DNA of 37,780 bases, taken from IMG/VR virus record IMGVR_UViG_3300034631_000072, positions 1 through 37,780 of that record. The stretch is one strand, 5' to 3'. The translations under genes and the position numbers were made by a program. Below the pieces are notes generated by a model. The model was not told the DNA's origin, did not search any database, and saw only the letters and a program-made list of their open reading frames with translations. The stretch comes from a virus. Shown here one piece after another: positions 2,483 to 37,780 of the stretch (position 1 is its first letter; every line of letters begins with the position of its first letter).

Positions 2483-3109
2483 TTGAAAACCAATAAACAA
2501 TTAGCAGATGAATTTATAATGATTGTAGCTGCAGATAAGGATATTAAAATGGATATGATATATCATGTAAAATTTAGAAACAAATCAAATCTTACAAATG
2601 ATTTTGATGATTTTTTCCATGATACAATTATGAAATGTTTTAATACGATAATAAAAAAAGGTGGTGATTTTACATATCCATCTGATTACAAAGGATACTT
2701 TTATAGGGCATTAGATAATAATTATATGGAACACCAACGTAAGCACAAAGATTATTATGAAAAGAATAAACCGTTGTGGTCTGAGAATGATTGGCAAACA
2801 GAATATATATCTACATCCACCATTGAAGATAAAGATTCTGATTTCATGGTAAAGCATGAAGAATACAATGAAAGGATAAAAAGAGAAAGATTAGAAGATA
2901 GACAAAAAGAAACTATGTTGAAGTACATGAATCTATTACCTGATACTTTGAAAGAACCTTTATTTCTTCACTATTGGGATAACAAAAGCTATAAAGATAT
3001 GTCCAGAATATTAGGAATATCTTTTAATGTTGTTAGAAATAGAATGTTTACAGCACGACAGGAAGTAAAGAAACTGATGGAACATGATATAAAAAATAAT
3101 TTGAATTAA
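2483..3109 (+). CDS. phage-encoded ECF-type RNA polymerase sigma factor
   Basis: A 208-residue protein with the two-domain ECF sigma layout. A region-2-like helical block spans about 35-90: DFDDFFHDTIMKCF, then the GYFYRALDNNYMEHQRKH segment corresponding to the -10 recognition and melting helices. After an acidic linker comes a region-4 domain (about 148-200), with LPDTLKEPLFLHYWDNKSYKDMSRILG and the recognition helix FNVVRNRMFTARQEVKKLM. It should redirect host RNA polymerase. Region 4 of ECF factors reads -35 boxes containing AAC. The TAAACA box before nine virion genes is a natural target, but this link is inference. The start is TTG, 4 bases after an out-of-frame ATG, in a gene that overlaps nothing. 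No late-type motif precedes the gene itself. Confidence 0.85.
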   Translation: MKTNKQLADEFIMIVAADKDIKMDMIYHVKFRNKSNLTNDFDDFFHDTIMKCFNTIIKKGGDFTYPSDYKGYFYRALDNNYMEHQRKHKDYYEKNKPLWSENDWQTEYISTSTIEDKDSDFMVKHEEYNERIKRERLEDRQKETMLKYMNLLPDTLKEPLFLHYWDNKSYKDMSRILGISFNVVRNRMFTARQEVKKLMEHDIKNNLN

Positions 3110-10916: not shown

Positions 10917-12122
10917 ATGGAATTTAAATATACACATATAAATAAATTAAAAAATACTGCTTCAATGTACATTGATGGTACTATTGGTGTAGATATTATT
11001 GGTTCTGAATTTGCAAAAGAATTAAGACAATTAGAAAATCTTAATCCTATTAGCGTTGATGTTAGAATTAATTCAGGTGGTGGTTCAGTAATAGATGGGT
11101 ATGATATTTTAGACGCAATATTAGAATCACCATTAAATGTATACACAACAGCATATGGTTTAGCTGGTTCAATGGCTGGTGTTATACTTATGGCTGGTAA
11201 GAAAGTTAGAATGACAGAGAACGGTATTTTTATGGTTCATTCTGTTAGTGGTCCTAAGAATCAAGATGTAGTAGATAAATACAATGCTTCATTGATTTCA
11301 ATATTTGCTGGTAGAACCAACGTAAAGCGTAATTACCTAAATAAGCTTATGAAAGGTGATAATTATTTTACGGCTATTGAATCACTATCTGCAGGCTTCA
11401 TAGATGAAGTATTACCAACAAAACAGAAAGTAAGTGTTGATATTAAAAATTCTTCTATTGATGAAATAGTAAACGTATTTAATAAAATTAAAAATGATGA
11501 TATGAATGATACTAATAATGAATTAGAAAATAATGTTGAACAAATTGTTGAAGTAATTAATGAAGTTGAAACAGCACCAGAAGTTGTTGAAGAAGTAGTT
11601 AATGAAGAAGAACAACCAGAAGAAGAAGCAACACCAGAAGCTAAACCAGAAGAAGTTGATTTAACAGAAATGAAAAAGCAATTAGAAGATTTAGTTAAAG
11701 TTAATGAAGACCTTTTAAAGCAATTAGCAGAAGTTAAACAGGCACATAATACATTAATTGAAAAAGAGAATACCAGAATTAAAGGTGAAAAAGAAGCATT
11801 GAAAGCACAAGTTGTTAATGCTGCAATTGAAGCTGGTAAATTTGGTGAAGATGTTAAATCTACATGGCTAAACTTTTTAGAAATTGATTTTGATGGTGCT
11901 AAAAAAGCTATTGATGTTATTGTAACAAATAAAGCAAGTGTTGATATAATGAATGTTGTTAATGCTGGTAAATCTGCTAAACCTGATATGACTTTAAGGC
12001 AATTAGAAAAGACAAACCCTAAAGAAGTAGCAAGAATTAAAACAGAAACACCAGAAATCTTTAATGAAATGTATAAAGAAGAATATGGTGTTTATCCTTC
12101 AAGTTACAAGCCTTCTATCTAA
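10917..12122 (+). CDS. ClpP-like prohead protease fused to scaffold domain
   Basis: A 401-residue head maturation protease with a scaffold tail. The N-terminal 180 residues are ClpP/S14-like: DVRINSGGGSVIDGYDILDAI (48-68) forms the oxyanion-side strand, GLAGSMAG carries the nucleophile S85, and GIFMVHSVSG carries H108. The GDNYFTAIESLSAGFIDEVLP segment closes the fold and contains the likely acidic partner. From about residue 190 the protein is acidic and coiled-coil (EEEQPEEEATPEAKPEEVD, then Lys/Glu/Gln heptads), as in capsid scaffolds. The last 70 residues look like a capsid-binding end. It lies directly before the capsid gene, as expected. Confidence 0.88.
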   Translation: MEFKYTHINKLKNTASMYIDGTIGVDIIGSEFAKELRQLENLNPISVDVRINSGGGSVIDGYDILDAILESPLNVYTTAYGLAGSMAGVILMAGKKVRMTENGIFMVHSVSGPKNQDVVDKYNASLISIFAGRTNVKRNYLNKLMKGDNYFTAIESLSAGFIDEVLPTKQKVSVDIKNSSIDEIVNVFNKIKNDDMNDTNNELENNVEQIVEVINEVETAPEVVEEVVNEEEQPEEEATPEAKPEEVDLTEMKKQLEDLVKVNEDLLKQLAEVKQAHNTLIEKENTRIKGEKEALKAQVVNAAIEAGKFGEDVKSTWLNFLEIDFDGAKKAIDVIVTNKASVDIMNVVNAGKSAKPDMTLRQLEKTNPKEVARIKTETPEIFNEMYKEEYGVYPSSYKPSI

Positions 12123-27695: not shown

Positions 27696-27920
27696 TTATT
27701 CTGTTAGAAGATTTTTTATTTTATTTTTTCTTTCATCACTTTTTAATTCAAATAATCTATCTTCTAAAATTTCTATTTTACGTTCCTCTATTTTTTTATT
27801 AGTTCTTTTAAAAACATCTTTTGATATTTTTATGCATAATTTTATATAATTCACATCTGTTTCTTTACTATAAATTCTCTTAAAATATTCTTCTTGTTCA
27901 TGAAAAGGTTTATCAATCAT
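27696..27920 (-). CDS. small unknown protein with shared C-terminal tail
   Basis: A 74-residue charged, helical protein of unknown function, coded just downstream of the polymerase-like gene and overlapping it by 4 bases (ATGA), so co-translated with it. Its middle is rich in Lys/Glu (KISKDVFKRTNKKIEERKIEILEDRLFEL). It ends in ERKNKIKNLLTE, one of the best copies of the tail also found on proteins at 30227, 30696, 30931, 34590 and 35580. No catalytic motif is visible. Coupling to the polymerase gene suggests an accessory role in replication or transcription, but that is inference from order. Confidence 0.6.
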   Translation of the reverse strand: MIDKPFHEQEEYFKRIYSKETDVNYIKLCIKISKDVFKRTNKKIEERKIEILEDRLFELKSDERKNKIKNLLTE

Positions 27921-29341
27921 ATTTTTATTGTTGTATTAAATTTTGGTAATGGTAATTTGTAATAATCAAAAGCTTCTTTCATTTCTTGTTCAACTACAGG
28001 TAATTGTGAGGTAGGACACATTATAGAATCATGACGTGGTATTATCTTTAATCCAGAATCTAATAATATACTTACACACCTATTAATCATTACTGTACTT
28101 TCTAACTTCTGCATCAACCAAGAAACGTTAGTATAAGACCCTACACCAGCTTTATTTTTATCTGAAGGGTTTGCTTTACAGTATCTACCTTTGATTGTTT
28201 TAAAGGCTTCTGATACATCAGGAAAACGATTATCAAAGCATTCAGATACTACACAATTCTGTGACCCAAACAAAGGAAGATAAAATAACTTCTTAGCTAA
28301 ATTACGTGGTGTAATAGTTCTGTAATCAACTTCATTTTTTAACTTTTTATTTATTTCTTCATTAGCTTCTATTACCTGCATCCAGTCTATGCCAAAGAAT
28401 TTTTGTAGTGCTGCAACCCATGTTTCATAGATAGTACCATTTAAACACAATGCTTTGTATTCTTTCCAATCAGTAGTATTAAAATCAATACCAGTAACTA
28501 ATGCTGATTCTTCTGGTATCATTCTACCAATTACTTCTTCACTGATGATAGAAGAAAAATATGGTTGGCTATTTACAATATCTACTTCACCTAAATATTC
28601 ATCATCAAACCCTTTAAACCTTAATAATGTATGACTAACCTTTTTAAGTGTTACCCATGCATTATGCAGCCTACCAGAAAATTTATCTCTTTTGTACCAG
28701 TATAAGTCCCTATCATTTACCATTTTCAAATACCTGTAGTACGATACCTGATATTCATTCTGAATAAATAATTGGTTATCCTTCACCAGCTTTTTTGCTG
28801 CTGGTGAAGCCAAATCTAAATACAAATCTTTGTGTACCTCTAATAGCTTAGTAACTATACTATCATTTGATTTATTCATGAATTTTAGCTTTTCCCTTTT
28901 ATATGCCAATTCACAGTTAAAAGCTTTTTTGTTGTGTAAAGCTACTTTCCTGTAGTACTTATTCTTACCAAATAAATCAAACTGTAAATACTGTTGTGGT
29001 ATTCTAAATTTTCTTGTTGTACTGTTAGCTGGATTATCAGCATCATAATAGCATTCAACCATATCTATCAAATCCCTATCAACCATAAACTTTACTATGG
29101 TTGGTGCATCCCTTTCAGATAATAGCTTTTCAACCAGTGTTGAATGTATTTTAATGTATGCAGTATAATCTTTTTCTTCTGATACATCTGCATTATACAT
29201 ACTAAACACTGCTTTATAGAATAGCAGTATTCTTTCTTTGTATCCTGTACCATCTACCAAGTTTTTAAAGCTATCTGATTTTAAATTAATTGGTAGGTAA
29301 CCATATGTTAGTGGTTTAATGATTTTCTTTTTGCGTCCCAT
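27917..29341 (-). CDS. family A/single-subunit-RNA-polymerase-like polymerase
   Basis: A 474-residue protein with the three palm motifs of family A DNA polymerases and T7-like RNA polymerases. Motif A is LGEVDIVNSQP with D254. Motif B is R346-NLA-K350-KLF-Y354-LPL-F358-G359, matching R...K...(F/Y)...(Y/F)G of the O helix. Motif C is IIPRHDSIMC with D438. The metal-binding pair D254/D438 and the R/K of motif B are intact. Spacing of 96 residues from D254 to K350 resembles T7 RNA polymerase (94) rather than Pol I (53). The protein is much shorter than either class and lacks an exonuclease. F358 replaces the T7 sugar-discriminating Tyr, and Q259 stands at the Pol I steric-gate place, so the substrate (rNTP or dNTP) cannot be predicted. 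A class E motif precedes it. Confidence 0.65.
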   Translation of the reverse strand: MGRKKKIIKPLTYGYLPINLKSDSFKNLVDGTGYKERILLFYKAVFSMYNADVSEEKDYTAYIKIHSTLVEKLLSERDAPTIVKFMVDRDLIDMVECYYDADNPANSTTRKFRIPQQYLQFDLFGKNKYYRKVALHNKKAFNCELAYKREKLKFMNKSNDSIVTKLLEVHKDLYLDLASPAAKKLVKDNQLFIQNEYQVSYYRYLKMVNDRDLYWYKRDKFSGRLHNAWVTLKKVSHTLLRFKGFDDEYLGEVDIVNSQPYFSSIISEEVIGRMIPEESALVTGIDFNTTDWKEYKALCLNGTIYETWVAALQKFFGIDWMQVIEANEEINKKLKNEVDYRTITPRNLAKKLFYLPLFGSQNCVVSECFDNRFPDVSEAFKTIKGRYCKANPSDKNKAGVGSYTNVSWLMQKLESTVMINRCVSILLDSGLKIIPRHDSIMCPTSQLPVVEQEMKEAFDYYKLPLPKFNTTIKI

Positions 29342-29359
29342 TTTCTATATCTGTTTTTA

Positions 29360-29388
29360 TTATATATCAGCTTATAGAAATGGAAAAT
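29360..29388 (-). promoter_or_regulatory. Class E promoter-like motif, copy 2 (polymerase gene)
   Basis: Read on the minus strand: ATTTTCCATTT, nine bases, GATATATAA, at the same spacing as the copies at 1380 and 30184. It ends 18 bases before the polymerase ATG. Confidence 0.55.
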
Positions 29389-29661
29389 CAAAAAGTTGTG
29401 TGTTTCAGTAAAATATTTTAAAAATAAAACGCAAAATGTCGGGAAGAAATAGTTACTTCTCTTTACTCTTTAATCTCTTTATTCTATAATAAATGATTTG
29501 AAGAAATTTATAATAAAGAGAATTAGAAATAAAGATTCTGATATTCAATCATTTTAAATTATACTTATTTATATGTTTGTTGTTGGGTTTTCCCTTAAAG
29601 GAAACCCAACTATATAATTAATGTATCTAAATGATTCTAAACAAATAAGTTAAACTACCAG
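29389..29661. other. Intergenic region with long imperfect hairpin
   Basis: This gap lies between two minus-strand genes and holds no supported gene. At 29475-29520, CTCTTTATT pairs with AATAAAGAG and inner ATAAAT pairs with ATTTAT, giving a long AT-rich stem-loop. At 29582-29610, GTTGGGTTT..CC pairs with GGAAACCCAAC with one bulged base. The second hairpin could end transcription from the HNH gene to its right. The first could be a structured RNA or a replication or regulatory site. Confidence 0.4.
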
Positions 29662-30141
29662 TTAAATCAAAACCAATTCTTTTATCTTCTTCTGATAAGC
29701 AATAAATGCTTCTTCTGGTGTATTAAACCAACCTATACTTCTTCTATATCCTGCTATTTTAATTACAGCTTCAAACTTTTTAAAATAGGGTAGATACTGT
29801 ACACCTTTCATATCTACAGGCTTTTTACACTTATCCTTTTTACCCTTCACTATATCTTTCATGGTAACCCATTTAAGATTATCAGCAGCATAGTTTGATT
29901 TATCACCATCTATGTAGTGTATATAATTACAACCTTCTGGTTTATCAACAAATGCTTCTGCAACCAAACGTGTTGTATTTAATACCATTGGTTTACCATT
30001 AATTCTAACATAGCAACACCAATACCCTTTTCTGTTGTGGCTGGTTATCTCTTTATAACCCATTTTCATTTTCTTTCTGATACTACCAAGATTACCAATC
30101 TGGTAGCCATCATACCCGTTTATATCTTTGAATTCTTCCAT
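29662..30141 (-). CDS. NUMOD4-HNH endonuclease, partly degenerate
   Basis: A 159-residue protein with an N-terminal NUMOD4-like motif (EEFKDINGYDGYQIGNLGSIRK), an HNH region (about 57-95) and a C-terminal AP2-like tail (VQYLPYFKKFEAVIKIAGYRRSIGWFNTPEEAFIAYQ). Compared with the two sister proteins in the window, the first HNH histidine (HRLVAE) is replaced by Thr (TRLVAEAF). VDHIN is replaced by IHYID, and the expected NN is NY. One histidine (H75) remains. It may still be an HNH_3-type enzyme with shifted residues, or a decaying homing nuclease. I start at ATG 30141, eight codons inside the longest frame, because both paralogues begin MxxExxKDI. Confidence 0.7.
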   Translation of the reverse strand: MEEFKDINGYDGYQIGNLGSIRKKMKMGYKEITSHNRKGYWCCYVRINGKPMVLNTTRLVAEAFVDKPEGCNYIHYIDGDKSNYAADNLKWVTMKDIVKGKKDKCKKPVDMKGVQYLPYFKKFEAVIKIAGYRRSIGWFNTPEEAFIAYQKKIKELVLI

Positions 30142-30183
30142 AGATATAGTATAAAATAAAACCAAAAAGTTTTATGAAATCAC

Positions 30184-30212
30184 ATTTTTCATTTTCTGAA
30201 ATAGATATATAC
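30184..30212 (+). promoter_or_regulatory. Class E promoter-like motif, copy 3 (small-gene operon)
   Basis: ATTTTTCATTT, nine bases, GATATATAC, identical in spacing to the copies at 1380 and 29360 (minus). It ends 14 bases before the ATG of the first small gene of the 30227-31447 operon. Confidence 0.55.
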
Positions 30213-30226
30213 TATTATAAAACAAA

Positions 30227-30358
30227 ATGATGTATATGAAAAAGAAAAAGAAGATTCAAAAAGAATTAGATGATAAGAAAACAAAAATCAAAGAATTATC
30301 TGATGCTTTATTTCTGCAGGTTGAAAGAAGAAGAAAAATTAATTCACTTTTAGAATGA
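30227..30358 (+). CDS. small basic helical protein with shared tail
   Basis: A 43-residue gene directly downstream of class E motif copy 3. Three in-frame ATGs lie at 30227, 30230 and 30236. The protein is an extremely basic helix (MKKKKKIQKELDDKKTKIKEL) and ends VERRRKINSLLE, a variant of the tail shared with other small early proteins. Its stop overlaps the next start by 4 bases (ATGA), which supports real translation. Function unknown; a nucleic-acid- or partner-binding helix is likely. Confidence 0.55.
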   Translation: MMYMKKKKKIQKELDDKKTKIKELSDALFLQVERRRKINSLLE

Positions 30359-30561
30359 ATGATTTAGATAGAAGATTTGAAGAATTAAAGGTTATACAAA
30401 AGTATCTGGATGATGATTTAAGGAACCTATACAAGAAAATCATGGCAACAGAAGATGAATTAATACTAACAGGTCACCCTGAAGGTATTATACCATACAA
30501 AGAAAGATATATAAATGAAGTAAAAGAATACCTAATAAAAAAGAATATAAGAACATGGTAA
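30355..30561 (+). CDS. small helical protein, unknown
   Basis: A 68-residue soluble helical protein (DRRFEELKVIQKYLDDDLRNLYKKI, then PYKERYINEVKEYLIKKNIRTW), coupled by overlaps to the genes on both sides: ATGA with the 43-residue gene, and 7 bases with the membrane-protein gene. No family is recognised. Unlike its neighbours it lacks the shared KIKN[LI]L tail. The highly charged composition resembles many phage early proteins that bind host factors. Confidence 0.55.
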   Translation: MNDLDRRFEELKVIQKYLDDDLRNLYKKIMATEDELILTGHPEGIIPYKERYINEVKEYLIKKNIRTW

Positions 30562-30677
30562 CAGAAAATAAGGTACTGCTAAGTATATACAAATGGATTG
30601 GTATTATATTTATATCACTAACTATAATAGTATGTTTTTCTCTTATCATTTACGGTATATGGAATGGACTATATTAA
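30555..30677 (+). CDS. single-pass membrane miniprotein
   Basis: A 40-residue protein with one strong membrane segment (about 14-37, WIGIIFISLTIIVCFSLIIYGIW) and a short polar N-terminus (MVTENKVLLSIYK). It overlaps the preceding gene by 7 bases in a different frame, and the next gene starts 18 bases later, so it fits the operon. Function unknown. Confidence 0.5.
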   Translation: MVTENKVLLSIYKWIGIIFISLTIIVCFSLIIYGIWNGLY

Positions 30678-30695
30678 AAATATTAATTAAATGAA

Positions 30696-30938
30696 ATGAA
30701 TATAGAAATAGAGTATTTAAGGATATTAGGAAGAAGAGAATTTAGAATTTACATCAGTAATGTTAATTCTGATTTGAAAGTTGTAAAACAGAAACTATTT
30801 CAGCTACCATCAGATTATTTTAGATTTGGTGTTTCTGGTACAAGATTGTTTATAGATAAATATGAAGCTGCTGATATTATTGATGAAATATTGGCAGAAA
30901 GAAGAAGGGATAAAATAAAAAATATTTTAAATGAATAA
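30696..30938 (+). CDS. small unknown protein with shared C-terminal tail
   Basis: An 80-residue mixed alpha/beta protein (MNIEIEYLRILGRREFRIYISNVNSDLKVVKQKLFQLP, then a strand-turn region FRFGVSGTRLFIDKYEAADIIDEIL). It ends LAERRRDKIKNILNE, the best copy of the tail shared by about nine small proteins here. The start is ATG 30696; an ATG five bases upstream is stopped after two codons. It overlaps the next gene by 8 bases. No known fold or activity is recognised. Confidence 0.6.
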   Translation: MNIEIEYLRILGRREFRIYISNVNSDLKVVKQKLFQLPSDYFRFGVSGTRLFIDKYEAADIIDEILAERRRDKIKNILNE

Positions 30939-31224
30939 CTATAAAAAAGGACTATTAGCAAAAGACTATTTAAAGAATAGCCAACAGAAGAAACAGCCAA
31001 AGAAAGTACAAGCACCAGTATCATCACCACCATATGGTGTAATCTTTACTGATAGAAGGTCGGGTAAAACAGATTTTTATTTTCAAGAGATAATAAATAT
31101 GGGTAGTGCATCATGGGGTACATTTGATGATGAAGAAACACCAGATGAAAAAGCTAAAAGAATAGCTGCAGAGAGAACAGAAAAGATAAAAAATATATTG
31201 GCAAATGATGAAGAAGAGGAATAA
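30931..31224 (+). CDS. small early protein carrying portal-like segment and shared tail
   Basis: A 97-residue protein with a basic N-terminus (KKGLLAKDYLKNSQQKKQPKKVQAP), a proline/serine turn, then YGVIFTDRRSGKTDFYFQEIINMGSASWGTFDDEE. Residues 56-68 (NMGSASWGTFDDE) are ten of thirteen identical to residues 243-255 of this phage's own portal (NMGSAAWGIFDKE). The C-terminus is RTEKIKNILANDEEEE, a tail copy extended by an acidic end. It overlaps its neighbours on both sides. The function is unknown. Mimicry of the portal could let it bind the same partner. Confidence 0.6.
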   Translation: MNNYKKGLLAKDYLKNSQQKKQPKKVQAPVSSPPYGVIFTDRRSGKTDFYFQEIINMGSASWGTFDDEETPDEKAKRIAAERTEKIKNILANDEEEE

Positions 31225-31447
31225 GCAACGGTTAAAAGTATCAGCTAATGAAGATGCGTTTACTGGTTATAATTATTTTCTTCATGATATACCCGATGAA
31301 TTTAAAGCTGAATATATAGAGATACTAAGCCAACCAGCTAAAACAAAACTAACACCTGATGGTAAACCTGTAGAAGAAATTCAAAAGGAATTAGAAACAC
31401 TACAAAGGAAAATTAAGATAAGTAAAATAATATCAGAAGATGAATAA
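31205..31447 (+). CDS. small unknown protein with tail-like end
   Basis: An 80-residue soluble protein (KVSANEDAFTGYNYFLHDIPDEFKAEYIEILSQPAKTKLTPDGKPVEEIQKELETL) that ends QRKIKISKIISEDE, a weak variant of the shared tail. Its first 20 bases overlap the preceding gene, so it is the last member of the 30227-31447 operon. A bidirectional terminator starts at its stop codon. Two possible ATGs (31205 and 31208) differ by one residue. No family is recognised. Confidence 0.5.
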   Translation: MMKKRNKQRLKVSANEDAFTGYNYFLHDIPDEFKAEYIEILSQPAKTKLTPDGKPVEEIQKELETLQRKIKISKIISEDE

Positions 31448-31475
31448 AAAAGGTAGCCTATCAAGCTACCTTTTT
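31447..31475. terminator. Bidirectional terminator between convergent genes
   Basis: Perfect 11-bp stem AAAAAGGTAGC / GCTACCTTTTT with a 7-base loop. It serves the plus-strand small-gene operon and the minus-strand HNH gene. Confidence 0.88.
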
Positions 31476-31985
31476 AAAGTTTACAGGTTCTAAACCTATA
31501 TCAATTAATGCATCATCATAAGCAACAGCAGCTTCTTCTTCATCAACAAAGCTACCTAAATGTTTATTTTTTCCATTTACTTTAATTCCAGCACTAAATT
31601 TACCTGCGGATTTATTCCAATGAACACCAACATATTTTGATGAAGTGTTACCTTTTTTATTCCTTAACTGGTTTTGCTGGTTTTCTCTTAATGTCACCCA
31701 TCTAAGATTTTCAATCCTGTTATCTTCAGGTAAGTTATTTATATGGTCTACCATTGATTTATTTTCAGGATTAGGTATGAACGCTTCTGCTATCAACCTA
31801 TGCACTCCTTTATAACTTCTAATACCATTTTTAAATAAACCGTACTGTATGTAACCATTTCCTTTTATAGATATAGCTAAAACTTTTGGTTTTCTTTTTG
31901 GTAAAGTACTTAATACTGTTCCTTTATCTGATATTTGATACAATCCCTCATACCCAACAATATCTTTAAATATTTCTTCTTCCAT
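31461..31985 (-). CDS. NUMOD4-HNH-AP2 homing-type endonuclease
   Basis: A 174-residue endonuclease closely similar to the protein at 783-1307. NUMOD4 comes first (EEIFKDIVGYEGLYQISDKGTVLS), then HNH (HRLIAEAFIPNPENKSMVDHINNLPEDNRIENLRWVT, with H62 and VDHIN 79-83 intact), then AP2 (SSKYVGVHWNKSAGKFSAGIKVNGKNKHLGSF...EEEAAVAYDDAL). All landmarks are kept. Its terminator doubles as that of the opposing operon. Together with the two other HNH proteins it shows repeated spread of one homing family within this phage lineage. Confidence 0.85.
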   Translation of the reverse strand: MEEEIFKDIVGYEGLYQISDKGTVLSTLPKRKPKVLAISIKGNGYIQYGLFKNGIRSYKGVHRLIAEAFIPNPENKSMVDHINNLPEDNRIENLRWVTLRENQQNQLRNKKGNTSSKYVGVHWNKSAGKFSAGIKVNGKNKHLGSFVDEEEAAVAYDDALIDIGLEPVNFKKVA

Positions 31986-32084
31986 GAACTTTATAGAAGA
32001 AGTTTTATTAAAGTTTTATTTTGGTATTTCTTTTTTTAAATAATTTTATTTACCATTGTATTAAACATTTTAATTCTTTCAATC

Positions 32085-32312
32085 ATGGCAACATTAAAGC
32101 AGTATTTACAATCAGAAATTGATTCGCTTCAAATGCGAGTGGTGAAACAAGCAAATAACATTGATGAAGTTAAATCACTAATTGATTTCTTTGATAAGAT
32201 GAATAAAGTGGTTAGTGAAGCACCAGAAGTATCAACCACTATTACTGCAGGTAGTGAATCAACTGGTAAGAAAAGAGGAAGACGTAAGAAAGAAGAAGTA
32301 GTAGCAGCTTAA
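32085..32312 (+). CDS. small protein with basic RGRRKK C-terminus, unknown
   Basis: A 75-residue protein with a helical, coiled-coil-like N-terminal half (LKQYLQSEIDSLQMRVVKQANNIDEVKSLIDFFDKM), a polar linker and a basic motif (GKKRGRRKKEE, about 61-71) resembling an AT-hook or nuclear/DNA-binding basic patch. Helix plus basic tail suggests a DNA-binding dimer. It is isolated, transcribed away from the HNH gene, and followed by a strong terminator. I recognise no family. It may be a nucleoid-like or regulatory protein. Confidence 0.5.
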   Translation: MATLKQYLQSEIDSLQMRVVKQANNIDEVKSLIDFFDKMNKVVSEAPEVSTTITAGSESTGKKRGRRKKEEVVAA

Positions 32313-32330
32313 TTAGCTTATACATAATCT

Positions 32331-32368
32331 AAAACCCTATCAAATAATTATTCTGATAGGGTTTTTTT
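32331..32368 (+). terminator. Intrinsic terminator after 32085 gene
   Basis: Perfect 12-bp stem AAAACCCTATCA / TGATAGGGTTTT with an 11-base loop and T-tract. Confidence 0.88.
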
Positions 32369-32753
32369 ATGCCTAATTAATTCTAAATAATTATGATAGT
32401 GTACCAGCTGGTATTGCTTATAATGTGCCTTAGCACGTAATACAAGCATAAATGATAGTATTACTATCAAGCAAACCACAGCCACACATACCCACTTTCA
32501 AACTAAGCTTTTAGTTATAGATTTCACCAGCACCTAATACAGCCACATCAAGCCATAATTTCAGCTATATTTTACTATTAGTTTACTGAAAAGTGGTAGA
32601 AAAATGTGTAAGTAGTTGAACACCAGCGTATAAAGCTATTGTATTTAATTTACGACCCAAAATAAAGTGTTATTTCTGAAATATTTTTTATCTGGTTTAA
32701 AACTATTGGTATATGAGACTATACAATCACCATTAACAAATAAAATTAAAACA
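32369..32753 (+). other. Structured, ORF-poor leader upstream of antirepressor
   Basis: About 385 bases with no gene that I can support, C-richer on this strand than nearby DNA (e.g. ACCACAGCCACACATACCCAC around 32475). It is full of inverted repeats: TACCAGCTGGTA (32402-32413), GTGC..GCAC (32426-32436), TGATAGTA.TACTATCA (32453-32469) and AACTAA..TTAGTT near 32502. Short frames of 15-20 codons start at ATG 32393 and 32452, both ATGATAGT. This could be a regulatory or antisense RNA locus, as known for antirepressors of P22 and P1. Confidence 0.4.
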
Positions 32754-33422
32754 ATGAACGAATTAATTAAAATAACAGAACGTAATGGTGAACCTGTAGT
32801 ATCTATGAAAGAACTATATCAGGTATTAGAATTGGCTGAATCACAATATTCAAGGTGGATAAAGAATAACTTATTTTCTATGTTTGATGAACATAAAGAT
32901 TATATCCCTATTCGACCTGATGTCGTGAATAATTTTGGTAAACCTACAACTGATTATGCTGTTACCTTAGATACTGCTAAACAATTATCAATGCTTGCAA
33001 GAACAGATAAAGGTAAACAGGTTAGACAATACTTTATTGAGATGGAAAAGAAAGCCACTAAAGCGTTATCACCTGCTGAACAGTTATTAGCTAATGCACA
33101 AATGTTAGTGGATATGGAAAGAAAGCACCAGCAGATACAAAATGAACTGGCTGAAACTAAAAGTGAGTTAAAGCAGGATATACAGTTACTAACTAACAGT
33201 ATTACAAATCAAACACACCAGATTAATTATTATACTGTTGCTGGTTATATCTCTTTACATAAAAGAAAATCACAACCTAACCATATATTAGCCCAAATAG
33301 GCAAACAATGTGTGAGGGTTTCTAATGGTATGAACTATGAAACCTATGATACCAATAGTACCACCTTTGGTAAGGTCAAAACATACCATCAGGATATATT
33401 AAAGATTGTATTAGGATTCTAA
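32754..33422 (+). CDS. AntA/AntB-type phage antirepressor
   Basis: A 222-residue antirepressor-like protein. The N-terminal AntA domain spans about 12-100: EPVVSMKELYQVLELAESQYSRWIKNNLF, HKDYIPIRP, and the hallmark TTDYAVTLDTAKQLSMLARTDKGKQVRQYFIEMEKK. A coiled coil (about 115-150, RKHQQIQNELAETKSELKQDI) follows, then a C-terminal domain (158-222, YYTVAGYISLHKRKSQPNHILAQIGKQCVR... FGKVKTYHQDIL) of the kind paired with many phage antirepressors. I start at ATG 32754, which matches the usual MNELIKI beginning. The open frame runs 29 codons further upstream from a GTG. It probably counters a prophage repressor, which itself was not recognised in the window. A terminator follows. Confidence 0.85.
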   Translation: MNELIKITERNGEPVVSMKELYQVLELAESQYSRWIKNNLFSMFDEHKDYIPIRPDVVNNFGKPTTDYAVTLDTAKQLSMLARTDKGKQVRQYFIEMEKKATKALSPAEQLLANAQMLVDMERKHQQIQNELAETKSELKQDIQLLTNSITNQTHQINYYTVAGYISLHKRKSQPNHILAQIGKQCVRVSNGMNYETYDTNSTTFGKVKTYHQDILKIVLGF

Positions 33423-33428
33423 ATTATT

Positions 33429-33454
33429 AAGGTAGGTTAATAGCCTACCTTTTT
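33429..33454 (+). terminator. Intrinsic terminator after antirepressor
   Basis: Perfect 8-bp stem AAGGTAGG / CCTACCTT with a 7-base loop and a T-tract. Confidence 0.85.
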
Positions 33455-33458
33455 CTAT

Positions 33459-33605
33459 ATGAGAAGAAGAAGAAAGCATAATCCATATAACGGTGACTAT
33501 AATGGGCATTGGCTGCATAAGATAGCTTTTAAGACAGTATTAATATTAGTGGCACTATCTGCCCTATGGCATCTGTTGCAATGGTTATACGGGCTTATAA
33601 CATAG
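33459..33605 (+). CDS. small membrane protein, unknown
   Basis: A 48-residue protein with an Arg-rich N-terminus (MRRRRKHNPYNGDYNGHWLH) and one membrane segment (about 21-46, KIAFKTVLILVALSALWHLLQWLYGLI). The frame is bounded by the antirepressor terminator upstream and a bidirectional terminator immediately after its stop. Positive residues at the N-terminus predict an N-in orientation. Function unknown; the frame could be a chance reading, but its membrane segment and neat flanking make it likely. Confidence 0.45.
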   Translation: MRRRRKHNPYNGDYNGHWLHKIAFKTVLILVALSALWHLLQWLYGLIT

Positions 33606-33608
33606 AAA

Positions 33609-33632
33609 AAAGGGTTAATTATCTAACCCTTT
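33609..33632. terminator. Bidirectional terminator between convergent genes
   Basis: Perfect 9-bp stem AAAGGGTTA / TAACCCTTT with a 6-base loop, overlapping the last codons of the minus-strand gene at 33615. A- and T-rich flanks on both sides. Confidence 0.75.
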
Positions 33633-33875
33633 ATCTATTCTGCTGATTCGGCTACTTCTATTACGCTTCTTCCATTCATCAAAGCTTATACGCTGCTTAT
33701 GGTGTATGTAATCAATCCAGTATTCAACATCATCTTCTGTTATTCCAGCTGGTTCTTTACTTACCCACTCAACACGTTCAAGGTACTGCGCATTGGTCGC
33801 TACATGTTTGCCTATAAAGTGGTGTTGTATGCTGTTCAGAAGCTGGAACTTCTTTAATGTTGCTTCATCAACCAT
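33615..33875 (-). CDS. small unknown protein
   Basis: An 86-residue protein (KKFQLLNSIQHHFIGKHVATNAQYLERVEWVSKEPAGITEDDVEYWIDYIHHKQRISFDEWKKRNRSSR) of mixed helical composition, rich in His and Trp. It ends RSSRISRIDKGLDN, which weakly resembles the shared tail. It starts inside the previous gene with an 8-base overlap, so the two form a unit. It may be a small DNA-binding or regulatory protein of the control region, but no HTH is convincing by eye. Confidence 0.5.
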   Translation of the reverse strand: MVDEATLKKFQLLNSIQHHFIGKHVATNAQYLERVEWVSKEPAGITEDDVEYWIDYIHHKQRISFDEWKKRNRSSRISRIDKGLDN

Positions 33876-34215
33876 TTAATTTTTTTAATTTGGTTTTTCT
33901 TGCTTTCAATTTGGGGTTATAATACCAACCTTCATCTATATAATCACCAGTGCAAAGGATTTCACCTTTATTAAATTCAGCAACATCTTCTGGTGTTATC
34001 TCAAACTTATACCCTAATTCACCAGCGTAATATTTAGCCAGTTCTAATTGTTCTTCTGGTGTGTGGTATAGGAAAAGCCTGTAGACTGAATCCAGAATTG
34101 AAATAACACAGTCTTTACGGATTTCATCAGCACTAAATTCAAATACTTTCTTTGTAGCAACACCATCTTTGTATTCTACACCATTAATCTTTACTGTTTT
34201 GTCTTTCATAATCAT
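33868..34215 (-). CDS. unknown protein next to the control region
   Basis: A 115-residue protein (FEFSADEIRKDCVISILDSVYRLFLYHTPEEQLELAKYYAGELGYKFEITPEDVAEFNKGEILCTGDYIDEGWYYNPKLKARKTKLKKLNG) transcribed away from the 34216-34415 intergenic region. It is helical with a basic C-terminus that could bind nucleic acid. Its placement opposite a divergent gene, with palindromes in its own promoter region, is what one expects of a regulator, but no repressor fold is recognised. The first and third codons are both ATG. Confidence 0.5.
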   Translation of the reverse strand: MIMKDKTVKINGVEYKDGVATKKVFEFSADEIRKDCVISILDSVYRLFLYHTPEEQLELAKYYAGELGYKFEITPEDVAEFNKGEILCTGDYIDEGWYYNPKLKARKTKLKKLNG

Positions 34216-34247
34216 ATAGTAGTTGTTAATGGATGCAATTTACAACT

Positions 34248-34270
34248 ATCTATAGTCCCAAACTATAGAT
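34248..34270. repeat. Inverted repeat operator candidate
   Basis: ATCTATAGT, CCCAA, ACTATAGAT: a perfect 9-bp inverted repeat, 33 bases upstream of the minus-strand gene at 33868-34215. A poor Bacteroidota-type -33/-7 pair (TTTG, TAAATTG) overlaps it on the minus strand. Confidence 0.5.
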
Positions 34271-34293
34271 GTAACAACATATAAATGTACCTC

Positions 34294-34317
34294 ACAAATA
34301 TCTTATATATGTTTGTC
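34294..34317 (-). repeat. 24-nt repeated operator-like block (inverted copy)
   Basis: Read on the minus strand this block begins GACAAACAT and ends GATATTTGT; it differs by one base from the plus-strand block at 35441-35464. It contains the half-sites ACAAATAT and ATGTTTGT facing each other. Confidence 0.55.
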
Positions 34318-34330
34318 TGATTTTATGAAA

Positions 34331-34372
34331 GTTCTTTCCATAGTACTAAAGGTTCTTTACGTAGTACTAAAG
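34331..34372 (+). repeat. Two tandem 21-bp repeats with TAGTACTA palindrome
   Basis: GTTCTTT(CC or AC)(A or G)TAGTACTAAAG at 34331-34351 and 34352-34372, 19 of 21 positions alike, each holding the 8-bp palindrome TAGTACTA. They end 44 bases before the gene at 34416 and look like adjacent operator sites. Confidence 0.6.
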
Positions 34373-34415
34373 CCAGATTTCATTATTAATATATACTATA
34401 AACTAATCTGATATT

Positions 34416-34541
34416 ATGATTAAAGAACAAGAACCAGCAGGTGGAGAATCACCAAAGAAGAAGCAATTACAAGCCCTTAGAGAGAAGATAAGACAGAAGA
34501 AGGTGCTGATACTGGCAATGCTGGCAAGTAGTGACAGATAG
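34416..34541 (+). CDS. small basic helical protein, unknown
   Basis: A 41-residue protein with an acidic/Gly N-terminus (MIKEQEPAGGESPKKKQ) and a basic helix (LREKIRQKKVLILAMLASSDR). It is transcribed from the divergent control region, behind two tandem operator-like repeats and an AT-rich AATATATAC box. A bidirectional terminator follows its stop. The small size resembles phage early regulators. No family is recognised, and the REKIRQKK part only loosely resembles the tail of other small proteins. Confidence 0.45.
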   Translation: MIKEQEPAGGESPKKKQLQALREKIRQKKVLILAMLASSDR

Positions 34542-34561
34542 GCTTAAATAGGGCAAAAAAG

Positions 34562-34591
34562 AAAGGGTAGCTATTTGATTGGCTACCCTTT
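34562..34591. terminator. Bidirectional terminator between convergent genes
   Basis: Perfect 10-bp stem AAAGGGTAGC / GCTACCCTTT with a 10-base loop, between the plus gene ending 34541 and the minus gene ending 34590. Confidence 0.85.
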
Positions 34592-34868
34592 ATTCATTTA
34601 ATAGATTATCTATCTTATCTTTTCTAATTGCTGTTAGTATATCAGATATATCTAAGAACAATTTTTGAAAACTACCTAAACTTTCATCATCATTTTTTAT
34701 ATTCTTATCCTTTACTTGTTTTCTGATATACTTTAAATCTTTTACTGTTAAATCATCTTCCCATTTTAAACCAACTTCATCAACATGCCAATCTATTTTT
34801 ATTCTACCAGTACCACTAAATAATTTACCTAAGTAATTCTTTATAGTATCTTTTTCTTGTGTAGTCAT
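34590..34868 (-). CDS. small unknown protein with shared C-terminal tail
   Basis: A 92-residue protein (TTQEKDTIKNYLGKLFSGTGRIKIDWHVDEVGLKWEDDLTVKDLKYIRKQVKDKNIKNDDESLGSFQKLFLDISDILTA) ending IRKDKIDNLLNE, a close copy of the shared tail. The first part suggests a small alpha/beta domain. It overlaps its upstream partner (34865-35281) by 4 bases, and that protein also has a tail-like end. Function unknown. Confidence 0.55.
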   Translation of the reverse strand: MTTQEKDTIKNYLGKLFSGTGRIKIDWHVDEVGLKWEDDLTVKDLKYIRKQVKDKNIKNDDESLGSFQKLFLDISDILTAIRKDKIDNLLNE

Positions 34869-35281
34869 TGTCCTATCACATTATCAATTTTGATATTTCT
34901 GAAATGTGATACCACATCTTCACGTTCCATATCTGTTACAGCATATACATCATATCCACCATGAATTTTAAATGTGAATTCTAAATTGATAGCACCATTT
35001 TCTGATTCTGGATTAATAACATATCCATAAATTAATTTACCATCCCTATCTTCTAAGAAGAATTCTAATTTTGAGACTGGAATACAAACATCATATATTG
35101 GTTTTGAAAACCGTATATGTACATCAACTGTAATTGTATCAGTTAACCCCAATTCACTTTTAGTTTCTTCATCCATATATTCAGTAGATATATTAGCAGC
35201 TACCATACTATTAATATACTCATCCATTTTCAGCAATTGCTGCTGATACTCTTTCTTCACTTCTTCTTTAGTCTTTGCCAT
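34865..35281 (-). CDS. unknown protein with tail-like C-terminus
   Basis: A 138-residue protein with a helical N-terminus (KTKEEVKKEYQQQLLKMDEYINSMV) and a beta-rich middle (TITVDVHIRFSKPIYDVCIPVSKLEFFLEDRDGKLIYGYVINPE). The C-terminus SHFRNIKIDNVIGQ is a variant of the shared tail and also resembles SHIRSRRIDDL at the end of the 35978 protein. A good Bacteroidota-type promoter with an overlapping palindromic operator lies directly upstream (35307-35336), so this is probably a regulated early gene. No named family is recognised. Confidence 0.55.
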   Translation of the reverse strand: MAKTKEEVKKEYQQQLLKMDEYINSMVAANISTEYMDEETKSELGLTDTITVDVHIRFSKPIYDVCIPVSKLEFFLEDRDGKLIYGYVINPESENGAINLEFTFKIHGGYDVYAVTDMEREDVVSHFRNIKIDNVIGQ

Positions 35282-35294
35282 ACTGATTTATTAA

Positions 35295-35313
35295 ACATTT
35301 GTATCACAAATGT
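35295..35313. repeat. Palindromic operator candidate in an early promoter
   Basis: ACATTTGT, ATC, ACAAATGT: a perfect 8-bp inverted repeat covering the -7 box of the leftward promoter. The same half-site recurs at 35409 and, in variant form, at 35442, 35457, 35549 and 35939. Confidence 0.65.
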
Positions 35314-35336
35314 ACAGCAACATTTTGTATTGTCAA
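35307..35336 (-). promoter_or_regulatory. Bacteroidota-type promoter for 34865-35281 gene
   Basis: On the minus strand, TTGACA at 35336-35331 (TTG as the -33 element), 19 bases, then TACATTTG at 35314-35307, a perfect match to the Bacteroidota -7 consensus TAnnTTTG. The gene starts 25 bases further on. Confidence 0.7.
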
Positions 35337-35368
35337 TACCCAAAACACAATAAAATTAAAGATAAACA

Positions 35369-35384
35369 CGTTCCACGTGGAACA
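35369..35384. promoter_or_regulatory. parS-like palindrome
   Basis: CGTTCCACGTGGAACA holds a perfect 14-bp palindrome (35370-35383). It matches the widely conserved ParB-binding parS consensus TGTTnCACGTGAAACA at all but two positions. No ParA or ParB gene is seen in the window. Confidence 0.55.
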
Positions 35385-35440
35385 GGGAAGGGTAGATAGC
35401 GGAAAAGTACAAATGTATAAGCGGTTTTAGACCCTGAAAA

Positions 35441-35465
35441 GACAAACATTTATAAGATATTTGTC
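35441..35465 (+). repeat. 24-nt repeated operator-like block (direct copy)
   Basis: Starts GACAAACAT and ends GATATTTGTC. The ends GACAAA and TTTGTC are a perfect inverted repeat. It matches, with one mismatch in 24, the minus-strand block at 34294-34317, about 1.1 kb away. Confidence 0.55.
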
Positions 35466-35522
35466 TACACCTGTAATTTTAGTACAATTTGAAAATAAAT
35501 TTTAAAAATAATTTTAACAAAT

Positions 35523-35564
35523 TTTGGAAAAGTTGTAGCTAACACACGATATTTGTAATAGAAA
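35523..35564 (+). promoter_or_regulatory. Twin early promoter, copy 1
   Basis: TTTG at 35523-35526, 21 bases, then GATATTTG (near TAnnTTTG) at 35548-35555. The -7 box lies in a 23-nt segment (ACACACGATATTTG onward) that is repeated exactly before the gene at 35978. The gene at 35580 follows. Confidence 0.55.
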
Positions 35565-35579
35565 TTATAACTACTTCCT

Positions 35580-35909
35580 ATGGGTGCTACAACATTTTAT
35601 AAGGCGACAACTGAAAAAGGTTTTAGAAATAGAATAGCTAAAATCTTTATTGAATTAGAAAAGAAATTTGGCTACAATACATGGACAGGTGAAAGAAATG
35701 AAGACTGGTTAAATCGTATTAGCCATTTTACTTTAGATTATCAAAGAATGACATTCTATATAGACTACACACAGGTTACAACAACTAAAGAGAATTTAGA
35801 TTTATTAAAACCAATCTATTTGAATAAGACCGAACAGGTTAAAGAACTTTATAAATGGGCTGGTAGGGATAGAAAAGCAAAGATTGATAATCTATTAAAA
35901 GAATTATAA
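35580..35909 (+). CDS. small unknown protein with shared C-terminal tail
   Basis: A 109-residue protein (TTFYKATTEKGFRNRIAKIFIELEKKFGYNTWTGERNEDWLNRISHFTLDYQRMTFYIDYTQV) with a helix-strand pattern that I do not recognise. It ends GRDRKAKIDNLLKEL, a clear copy of the shared tail. It is expressed from its own promoter, whose sequence is repeated before the next gene, so the two genes are probably controlled in parallel. No catalytic residues are evident. Confidence 0.6.
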   Translation: MGATTFYKATTEKGFRNRIAKIFIELEKKFGYNTWTGERNEDWLNRISHFTLDYQRMTFYIDYTQVTTTKENLDLLKPIYLNKTEQVKELYKWAGRDRKAKIDNLLKEL

Positions 35910-35912
35910 GAT

Positions 35913-35954
35913 TTTGGAATTGATATTCCTTACACACGATATTTGTAATAGAAA
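35913..35954 (+). promoter_or_regulatory. Twin early promoter, copy 2
   Basis: Same layout as the copy at 35523: ATTTTGGAA at 35911-35919, then after the same distance the identical 23-nt segment at 35932-35954 containing GATATTTG. It precedes the gene at 35978. Confidence 0.55.
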
Positions 35955-35977
35955 CTTTAACCAAATCTCTATCTGAT

Positions 35978-36403
35978 ATGATTACCAGAAAAAAAGGTGA
36001 CCCGAAATTAAAACCAGCAGTGTTTTTTCCAACAGAAGGAATTGTTGTTGATATAATAAATAATAGCAGTAGTGCAAAAACAGAACATGAAGTAATTGTA
36101 TCTGGTGTACGATTCAAATTAGAAGAATTAGAATATGACGGTTACAGCAAAAGAGAAAATAAATACCTTTTTAAATATTGGTATAACAAAGTTTATTATG
36201 ATATACTACCAATTGAACAACGACCATTAAAACGTGGTGAAAAACAAAGATTAAACCAAAACGAATCAGACTGGTTATCTTTTGATATTTGGGTTAAAGA
36301 TGGTGTAATTCAGAATGTATTTTGTGAAGCTGTTAGTTATTATAAAACAGTAGTTGCAACTGTACAATCACACATCAGAAGCAGACGAATAGATGATTTA
36401 TAA
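35978..36403 (+). CDS. unknown protein with tail-like C-terminus
   Basis: A 141-residue protein (PKLKPAVFFPTEGIVVDIINNSSSAKTEHEVIVSGVRFKLEELEYDGYSKRENKYLFKYWYNKVYYDI) that looks beta-rich, with YxxxYW and GEKQRLNQNESDW segments. The end, SHIRSRRIDDL, resembles that of the 34865-35281 protein and is a degenerate form of the shared tail. It uses a promoter copied from the previous gene. A strong terminator follows. No family is recognised. Confidence 0.55.
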   Translation: MITRKKGDPKLKPAVFFPTEGIVVDIINNSSSAKTEHEVIVSGVRFKLEELEYDGYSKRENKYLFKYWYNKVYYDILPIEQRPLKRGEKQRLNQNESDWLSFDIWVKDGVIQNVFCEAVSYYKTVVATVQSHIRSRRIDDL

Positions 36404-36556: not shown

Positions 36557-37780
36557 TTACATTTCAAACGCTTTACTCAACATCAAAGCAGTATTAACAG
36601 GATATTTATTTGCATAATGCTGCATGATGGTGTCAATTTTCACATGACCAGACATTCCGCAAACAGTTGGTAGTGGTATACCAGCCTGAATACATAAATT
36701 CAAAAACGTCTTTCTTCCAATGCAATGTGAAGTCAATGTTGAATATTTAGGTACACTAACCTTTTCACCATCACTATCAATATAATCTATATTGTATTGT
36801 AGTTCTTCAATCTTGCTACACATATTCCGCAAATCAGCAGTAAATAGATGAACATATTTAACTGATTCTATTTTGTAATCATACTTATCTAAAACTGATT
36901 GAACTGCTTTTGAAATCGGAATTATAGCCCTTACTTTTTTCTTTTTAGTTTTGGTAGGCACTATATTAATTACGCCACCTGCACATGTATTTTTATTTAA
37001 TAAAGCTAAATCACCAATACGTATACCTGTATTACTTAAAACAATTACAATATTTTTAACATATTCTTCTTTTGAATTAACAGGCTGATAATTCATGATA
37101 GCTTCTAACTCGTCTCGTTCAAGACAAATCATATTTGTTTCAGCAGCATTTACTTTTTCCCAACTATTTGTTTTTATATTGTGCTTAATATCTTTTTTAT
37201 CAAGCCACAAAACAAATTCTTTAAAGGCTGCTAATCTAACGTTAAAAGAATTTGCATTTAATTTCTTCTTACGCTTATTTAAAAAGTAATCGGTGAATTT
37301 CTCAATGAAATTATAATCAATGGAATTTAACGTTATCTTCTTTTTATTATGCTTCTCAAATTCAATTAGATGTTCACCTAAATATTTTAAATTCTTTTCA
37401 CTACCTGTTACAGTTTTTCTTTTCTTTACAATTAGATATTCCTGAATTAAAGCGTGTATATCTTCACCATCTGTTTCAGGTTTATCTAATTCATTTTCTA
37501 TAAATTCTATTGGTGGTAAGGAATTGTATTTAAACTGGTAGGTGGTGATAATACTGCTGATATTGTTATAGAGAGAATCTACAGTTGCAGAATCTGTTGC
37601 TGATAGTCCGTTTTTCTTTGGCTGGTGGTTCTTAGCATCCCACTTATCAGCAGAGATTTTAACCGAAGTGTTCCAATGCTTAATTTTTCCAGCCTTACTG
37701 TAGTAGACTACAATATTACCCATCCCCGTTTTTTTGCTTACGTTGTGCAGGTAGCGTTTAATGTTTTTGCTTGCGTCCAT
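36557..37780 (-). CDS. int: tyrosine recombinase (phage integrase)
   Basis: A 407-residue tyrosine integrase. An N-terminal arm-type domain (VSKKTGMGNIVVYYSKAGKIKHWNTSVKISADKWD, about 14-48) and a SAM-like core-binding domain (about 110-200, with SFNVRLAAFKEFVLWL) precede the catalytic domain. The active-site residues are R254 (SNTGIRIGD), a Lys cluster near 278-282 in the beta turn, H352 and R356 (SHCIGRKTF), H379 (SGH) and the nucleophile Y389 (QHYAN). H and R are spaced by three residues instead of the usual two, an unusual point. The start codon lies at the last base of the window, so an upstream start cannot be excluded. It marks the element as temperate; no att core is identified. Confidence 0.9.
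   Translation of the reverse strand: MDASKNIKRYLHNVSKKTGMGNIVVYYSKAGKIKHWNTSVKISADKWDAKNHQPKKNGLSATDSATVDSLYNNISSIITTYQFKYNSLPPIEFIENELDKPETDGEDIHALIQEYLIVKKRKTVTGSEKNLKYLGEHLIEFEKHNKKKITLNSIDYNFIEKFTDYFLNKRKKKLNANSFNVRLAAFKEFVLWLDKKDIKHNIKTNSWEKVNAAETNMICLERDELEAIMNYQPVNSKEEYVKNIVIVLSNTGIRIGDLALLNKNTCAGGVINIVPTKTKKKKVRAIIPISKAVQSVLDKYDYKIESVKYVHLFTADLRNMCSKIEELQYNIDYIDSDGEKVSVPKYSTLTSHCIGRKTFLNLCIQAGIPLPTVCGMSGHVKIDTIMQHYANKYPVNTALMLSKAFEM

Follow-up and report, generated by a model that had tools for sequence, protein, structure and literature searches.

Eleven small proteins encoded in the early and accessory region of a phage genome end in one and the same short motif, R-x-x-[KR]-[IL]-[DKNS]-x-[LIVG]-[LIN], mostly followed by x-E and the stop codon. 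This C-terminal tail is real, and stronger than an earlier note on this DNA stated, and it is apparently an undescribed feature, as no description of such a tail was found in the literature. We consider the chances about even that it represents a short, portable docking helix, which would bring eleven different bodies to one common partner.

Results

The window, meaning the whole stretch of DNA analysed, is a 37.8-kb IMG/VR virus record with a GC content of about 0.30, and from its gene content we read it as a temperate phage of Bacteroidota. It encodes a tyrosine integrase (36557-37780), the matches of which among phages and plasmids all belong to Bacteroides, Porphyromonas, Parabacteroides, Phocaeicola or unnamed faecal phages, and in addition an AntA antirepressor, DUF5675 and a protein with sigma-70 region 4. 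The head and tail module lies on the plus strand, and the annotated phage matches of the portal protein include many Flavobacterium and Bacteroides phages. The nearest relative found, IMGVR_UViG_3300025138_000201 (G001), has a terminase of 71% identity, has almost all structural genes in common with the window, and also possesses a diverged version of the 474-aa replication-type protein encoded at 27917-29341. The latter is an orphan from a family without a Pfam match; several Bacteroidia genomes have relatives at 25-29% identity, and no relatives were detected in viral contigs. The sigma-70 region 4 protein (2483-3109), located directly upstream of the packaging genes and identical to its G001 counterpart at 74 of 176 residues, is a candidate late-gene sigma factor.

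The tail is carried by 11 of the 20 genes called, mechanically, at 27.6-36.5 kb, and the register is the same in all, with the first arginine placed three residues ahead of the lysine or arginine in every tail. Both of these positions are conserved in 11 of 11 tails and the isoleucine in 10 (leucine once), while the two residues after the invariant arginine vary freely. The carriers span 43 to 141 aa. Between 3 and 11 residues follow the conserved isoleucine or leucine, so the distance to the terminal carboxylate varies, and the last residue is E, N, G or Q in nine of the eleven tails, with L also among the ends.

In the following, proteins are named by their first coordinate, and tail coordinates include the stop codon. 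On the minus strand, downstream of the 474-aa replication-type protein, a 74-aa protein (27696-27920) ends RKNKIKNLLTE (27696-27731). Four carriers follow on the plus strand: a 43-aa protein (30227-30358) with RRRKINSLLE (30326-30358), an 80-aa protein (30696-30938) with RRDKIKNILNE (30903-30938), a 97-aa protein (30931-31224) with RTEKIKNILANDEEEE (31174-31224) and another 80-aa protein (31205-31447) with the weaker tail RKIKISKIISEDE (31406-31447). The minus strand then holds an 86-aa protein (33615-33875) with the weak tail RISRIDKGLDN (33615-33650), a 115-aa protein (33868-34215) with the likewise weak RKTKLKKLNG (33868-33900), a 92-aa protein (34590-34868) with RKDKIDNLLNE (34590-34625), adjoining a terminator-like hairpin, and a 138-aa protein (34865-35281) with RNIKIDNVIGQ (34865-34900). 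Finally, on the plus strand, a 109-aa protein (35580-35909) ends RKAKIDNLLKEL (35871-35909) and a 141-aa protein (35978-36403) carries the short tail RSRRIDDL (36377-36403). All nine tails of the earlier note were recovered in place, 33615 and 33868 are new, and the coordinates, which place the tails in several operons, bear out its description of separate gene clusters on both strands. The early-region genes without a tail are those for the 474-aa protein and AntA, two HNH-type endonuclease genes, 30355, 32085, 34416, and 30555 and 33459, the last two being short, hydrophobic and probably membrane proteins.

The similarity of the protein ends was assessed by ungapped BLOSUM62 scoring of C-terminal 16-mers from the 20 early-region genes, with 5000 within-tail shuffles as the null. 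Eighteen pairs scored at least 26, far more than in the shuffles, which averaged 0.52 pairs and never exceeded 5. The N-terminal 16-mers of the same 20 proteins, used as a control, yielded 1 pair, internal windows of the same early proteins averaged 0.61 pairs, and the late genes displayed no excess of similar ends (2 pairs vs 0.7 expected). The expression R..[KR][IL]..[LIVM], applied to the last 20 residues, matched 11/20 early and 0/36 late proteins, in line with the earlier observation that the late virion genes lack the tail. The same expression matched 2/546 small proteins of AT-rich background loci; binomial values for these counts are post hoc, and the comparison is meaningful only as a rate, 11/20 vs 2/546. 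When the window was scanned in its six reading frames with a tail profile, exactly the eleven tails and no other match came out above 11 bits. When each tail was left out of its own profile, nine of eleven still reached about 11 bits or more, the two weakest being 33868 (7.7 bits) and 33615 (8.8 bits). The motif was first noticed post hoc, which the shuffles and the leave-one-out scores deal with. No comparable sharing of ends was seen in eight other virus contigs or in ten Bacteroidota phages, among them several that are equally A+T-rich, the one exception being a pair in phage 11b that is evidently a duplication. That K- and I-rich C-termini of an A+T-rich genome simply look alike is hence hardly credible: K, I, N and L are indeed common at a GC of 0.30, but 0 of 5000 same-residue shuffles reached the observed pair count, and internal windows, late genes and similarly A+T-rich phages all failed to produce shared ends.

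With the last 16 residues removed, the carrier bodies exhibit no similarity beyond shuffles, the Smith-Waterman z being at most 2.5 and no pair ever scoring above the best of its 100 shuffles, which fits the earlier proposal that the set is not one duplicated gene. At identical tail residues the codons agree 73 times vs 55 predicted from usage (P about 0.03), and in pairwise codon sharing none stands out, the best pair having a P of 0.04 among 55 pairs. The synonymous positions are accordingly close to random, congruent with the earlier remark that the codons differ between tails. The peptide has been kept while the tail DNA drifted, which argues for selection at the protein level.

The main rival to the docking helix is ancient paralogy with a conserved last helix, or exchange of 3' ends, in which the carriers would be one small family or genes with swapped ends where only the C-terminal helix is still recognisable, perhaps serving a dimer or hetero-oligomer. 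We regard this as unlikely, if worth serious attention. The slight surplus of shared codons is in its favour, as are inverted matches at gene ends (55 nt at 75% and 35 nt at 89%) and the duplication of a 58-nt upstream element before 35580 and 35978, but the undetectable body similarity, the spread of carrier lengths and the near-random synonymous positions speak against it. Gene ends may have been copied, though long ago, and recent duplication as the source of the tails is disfavoured.

It is also very improbable that the tail is a nucleic-acid element at gene ends, acting in translational coupling, RNA processing or recombination and translated in frame by accident. Five of the 11 carrier genes overlap the next start codon, and the DNA consensus, allowing up to 3 mismatches, occurs 7 times vs 0.6 expected; all seven matches are however the tails themselves, in the same frame every time and directly before the stop, with synonymous sites that vary in codon. 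As there is no overlapping start at the other six tails, and 34590 is followed by the terminator-like hairpin, translational coupling provides no explanation for the tail.

The expectation that the tag would be found in related Bacteroidota phages did not hold, as no tailed set was present in any relative or survey genome examined. G001 has a single match to the expression, in a structural protein and in a different register, and G387, which has the same structural module, is without the tail. The ten Bacteroidota phages lacked a tailed set, as did Bacteroidia prophage regions located by terminase, sheath-like or replication protein, some of these regions being short or comprising structural genes only, which makes this a negative survey rather than a demonstration of absence. 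None of the searches made brought up a relative of the tailed proteins: for 34865, 35978 and 35580 no relatives were recovered from viral contigs, tblastn of 34865, 35978, 33868, 30931 and 30696 against annotated phages gave none, and a 23-aa tail query had no match, a query so short being weak evidence.

DNA patterns for the strict form of the tail, which a minority of the eleven tails meet, occur at the level of chance in viral and genome contigs; weaker forms may still occur elsewhere. Of the 11 matches to KIDNLLxE-stop in the viral collection, not one lay at a credible gene end. RxxKIxNLLxE-stop had 16 there, the real ends falling mostly in two cytosine-methyltransferase-like families plus two other proteins; among 84,980 species genomes it had 36, the majority of them in spurious frames. 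In six IMG/VR contigs, phage DNA cytosine methyltransferases (a family call made by eye from sequence) end RIQKIENLLNE or RIIKINNLLEE. Like the tail, these bear the strict DNA pattern at a true C-terminus; unlike the tail set, they represent one homologous enzyme family with one copy per contig match, and they show that such a tail form can arise independently on an unrelated protein. The tail is a lineage-specific feature rather than a general Bacteroidota phage tag.

An AlphaFold2 single-sequence model of 30696 has at its C-terminus one helix of 25 residues, 55-79, which includes the tail and has a pLDDT of 83-90; this is the best of five models (mean pLDDT 79), the only confident one, with the other four at 45-59. 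The C-terminal helix of the earlier note is therefore backed by one carrier, 30696; the 34590 model (mean pLDDT 46) was too poor to use. If the tail is helical, R (0), I (+4) and L (+7), all of them conserved, would share one face. A fold search with the 30696 model gave no match at E<=0.001 and none that was convincing. Against Pfam, PHROGs, PADLOC and NCBIfam, the carriers searched were assigned no family at curated cut-off, the sole low E-value being a coiled-coil-like match of 27696 to PADLOC LmuB at 17 bits, and the best match of the tail profile in the PDB was at an internal position (E=1.3).

Discussion

An invariant arginine, a fixed R-K-I-L spacing and a loose distance to the carboxyl end, on dissimilar proteins of several operons, are together consistent with a docking helix with one reader. 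The conserved C-terminal helix would dock on a single partner, with Arg, Ile and Leu presumably on the contact face, and different accessory bodies would be recruited to this partner via the tail. The invariant arginine, with the next two residues varying, looks less like an amphipathic helix of a generic kind than like a motif that is read out. Among the three functions guessed at earlier, the docking tag thus remains the best, generic dimerisation is a poor fit to the invariant arginine, and a degradation tag is disfavoured for the variable carboxylate distance and the polar ends.

The latter possibility, a tag for clearing early proteins as the phage turns to late functions, we consider improbable, more so than ancient paralogy. 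Its restriction to small proteins of the early region and absence from virion genes would suit such a role, and basic plus hydrophobic residues near the C-terminus resemble the C-motif 2 of MuA that is recognised by ClpX. As with the ssrA tag and MuA-type C-motif 2, the tail is a short C-terminal signal, basic and hydrophobic, that fits any body. ClpX C-degrons (ssrA-like LAA, MuA-like RRKKAI) are however read at or beside the C-terminal carboxylate, whereas the 3 to 11 residues after the conserved I/L and the mostly acidic or polar ends (E, N, G or Q in 9/11) give the tail neither a fixed placement nor a nonpolar end, and a ClpX-type degron is disfavoured on this account.

The capsid targeting sequence (CTS) of T4 is located N-terminally and is cut off by the prohead protease. 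It is one short conserved terminal peptide on highly diverse small internal proteins (PMC3012670). The present tail is similarly common to otherwise diverse small proteins of one phage, eleven in number and with bodies that are not detectably similar. Unlike the CTS, the tails are all C-terminal, with no excess among the N-terminal 16-mers, and the tail is unrelated in sequence and sits on early/accessory-region genes. Being C-terminal and unrelated in sequence, it is not classed as a CTS. As a docking helix, the tail would work as the T4 CTS does, but from the opposite protein end. Several tails end L-x-E, which we take to resemble the T4 gp21 prohead-protease site; a protease site was rejected, since almost nothing follows L-x-E. 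A sliding-clamp motif was dropped as well, the spacing not fitting the QLxLF type.

A candidate partner for the docking helix would be a host machine, which would then be the target of several takeover or counter-defence proteins; other candidates are the prohead or scaffold and a phage protein particular to this lineage. G001 and G387 share the structural module but are without the tail, so that the scaffold and other conserved structural proteins are not strongly favoured as partners. The head protease (10917-12122) has an acidic, scaffold-like C-terminal region with a net charge of -22, and this region as the tail partner is a guess, weakened by G001 keeping the protein without tails. More broadly, and somewhat more tentatively than the docking helix itself, we envisage a phage-specific C-terminal sorting code, where one helix on at least eleven unrelated early proteins would recruit all of them to one hub, of the phage or of the host, or into the capsid, and new bodies would become functional on gaining the tail; all evidence for the tail derives from one phage genome.

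Most accessory proteins that temperate phages encode are orphans without a testable hypothesis. A common terminal motif would offer one bait for the whole set, and its binder would assign all eleven unknown proteins to a single pathway. Should the tail prove to be a recruitment tag, it would join the T4 sequence as the second kind of terminal peptide that sorts diverse phage proteins, and small phage proteins would then merit a scan of their ends instead of their bodies.

The early region also contains repeats upstream of early genes: an inverted 25-nt repeat (96%) at 34294-34318 and 35440-35464, and a direct 58-nt repeat (79%) at 35514-35571 and 35904-35961, preceding 35580 and 35978. They contain GATATTTG, which resembles closely the -7 promoter element of Bacteroidota (TAnnTTTG), and are partly palindromic, and as judged from these features the repeats are likely common early promoters or operators. 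Between two operons, at 35369-35384, lies the perfect 14-nt palindrome GTTCCACGTGGAAC, not found in the other loci compared. It is presumably near the consensus of the chromosomal ParB site (parS), and could be a phage-borne site for partition or ParB binding. Three endonuclease-like genes (783-1325, 29662-30165 and 31461-31985), one of them confirmed as NUMOD4-HNH-AP2, are alike, and the C-termini of 783 and 31461 are similar; these are thus probably homing-type genes that have spread.
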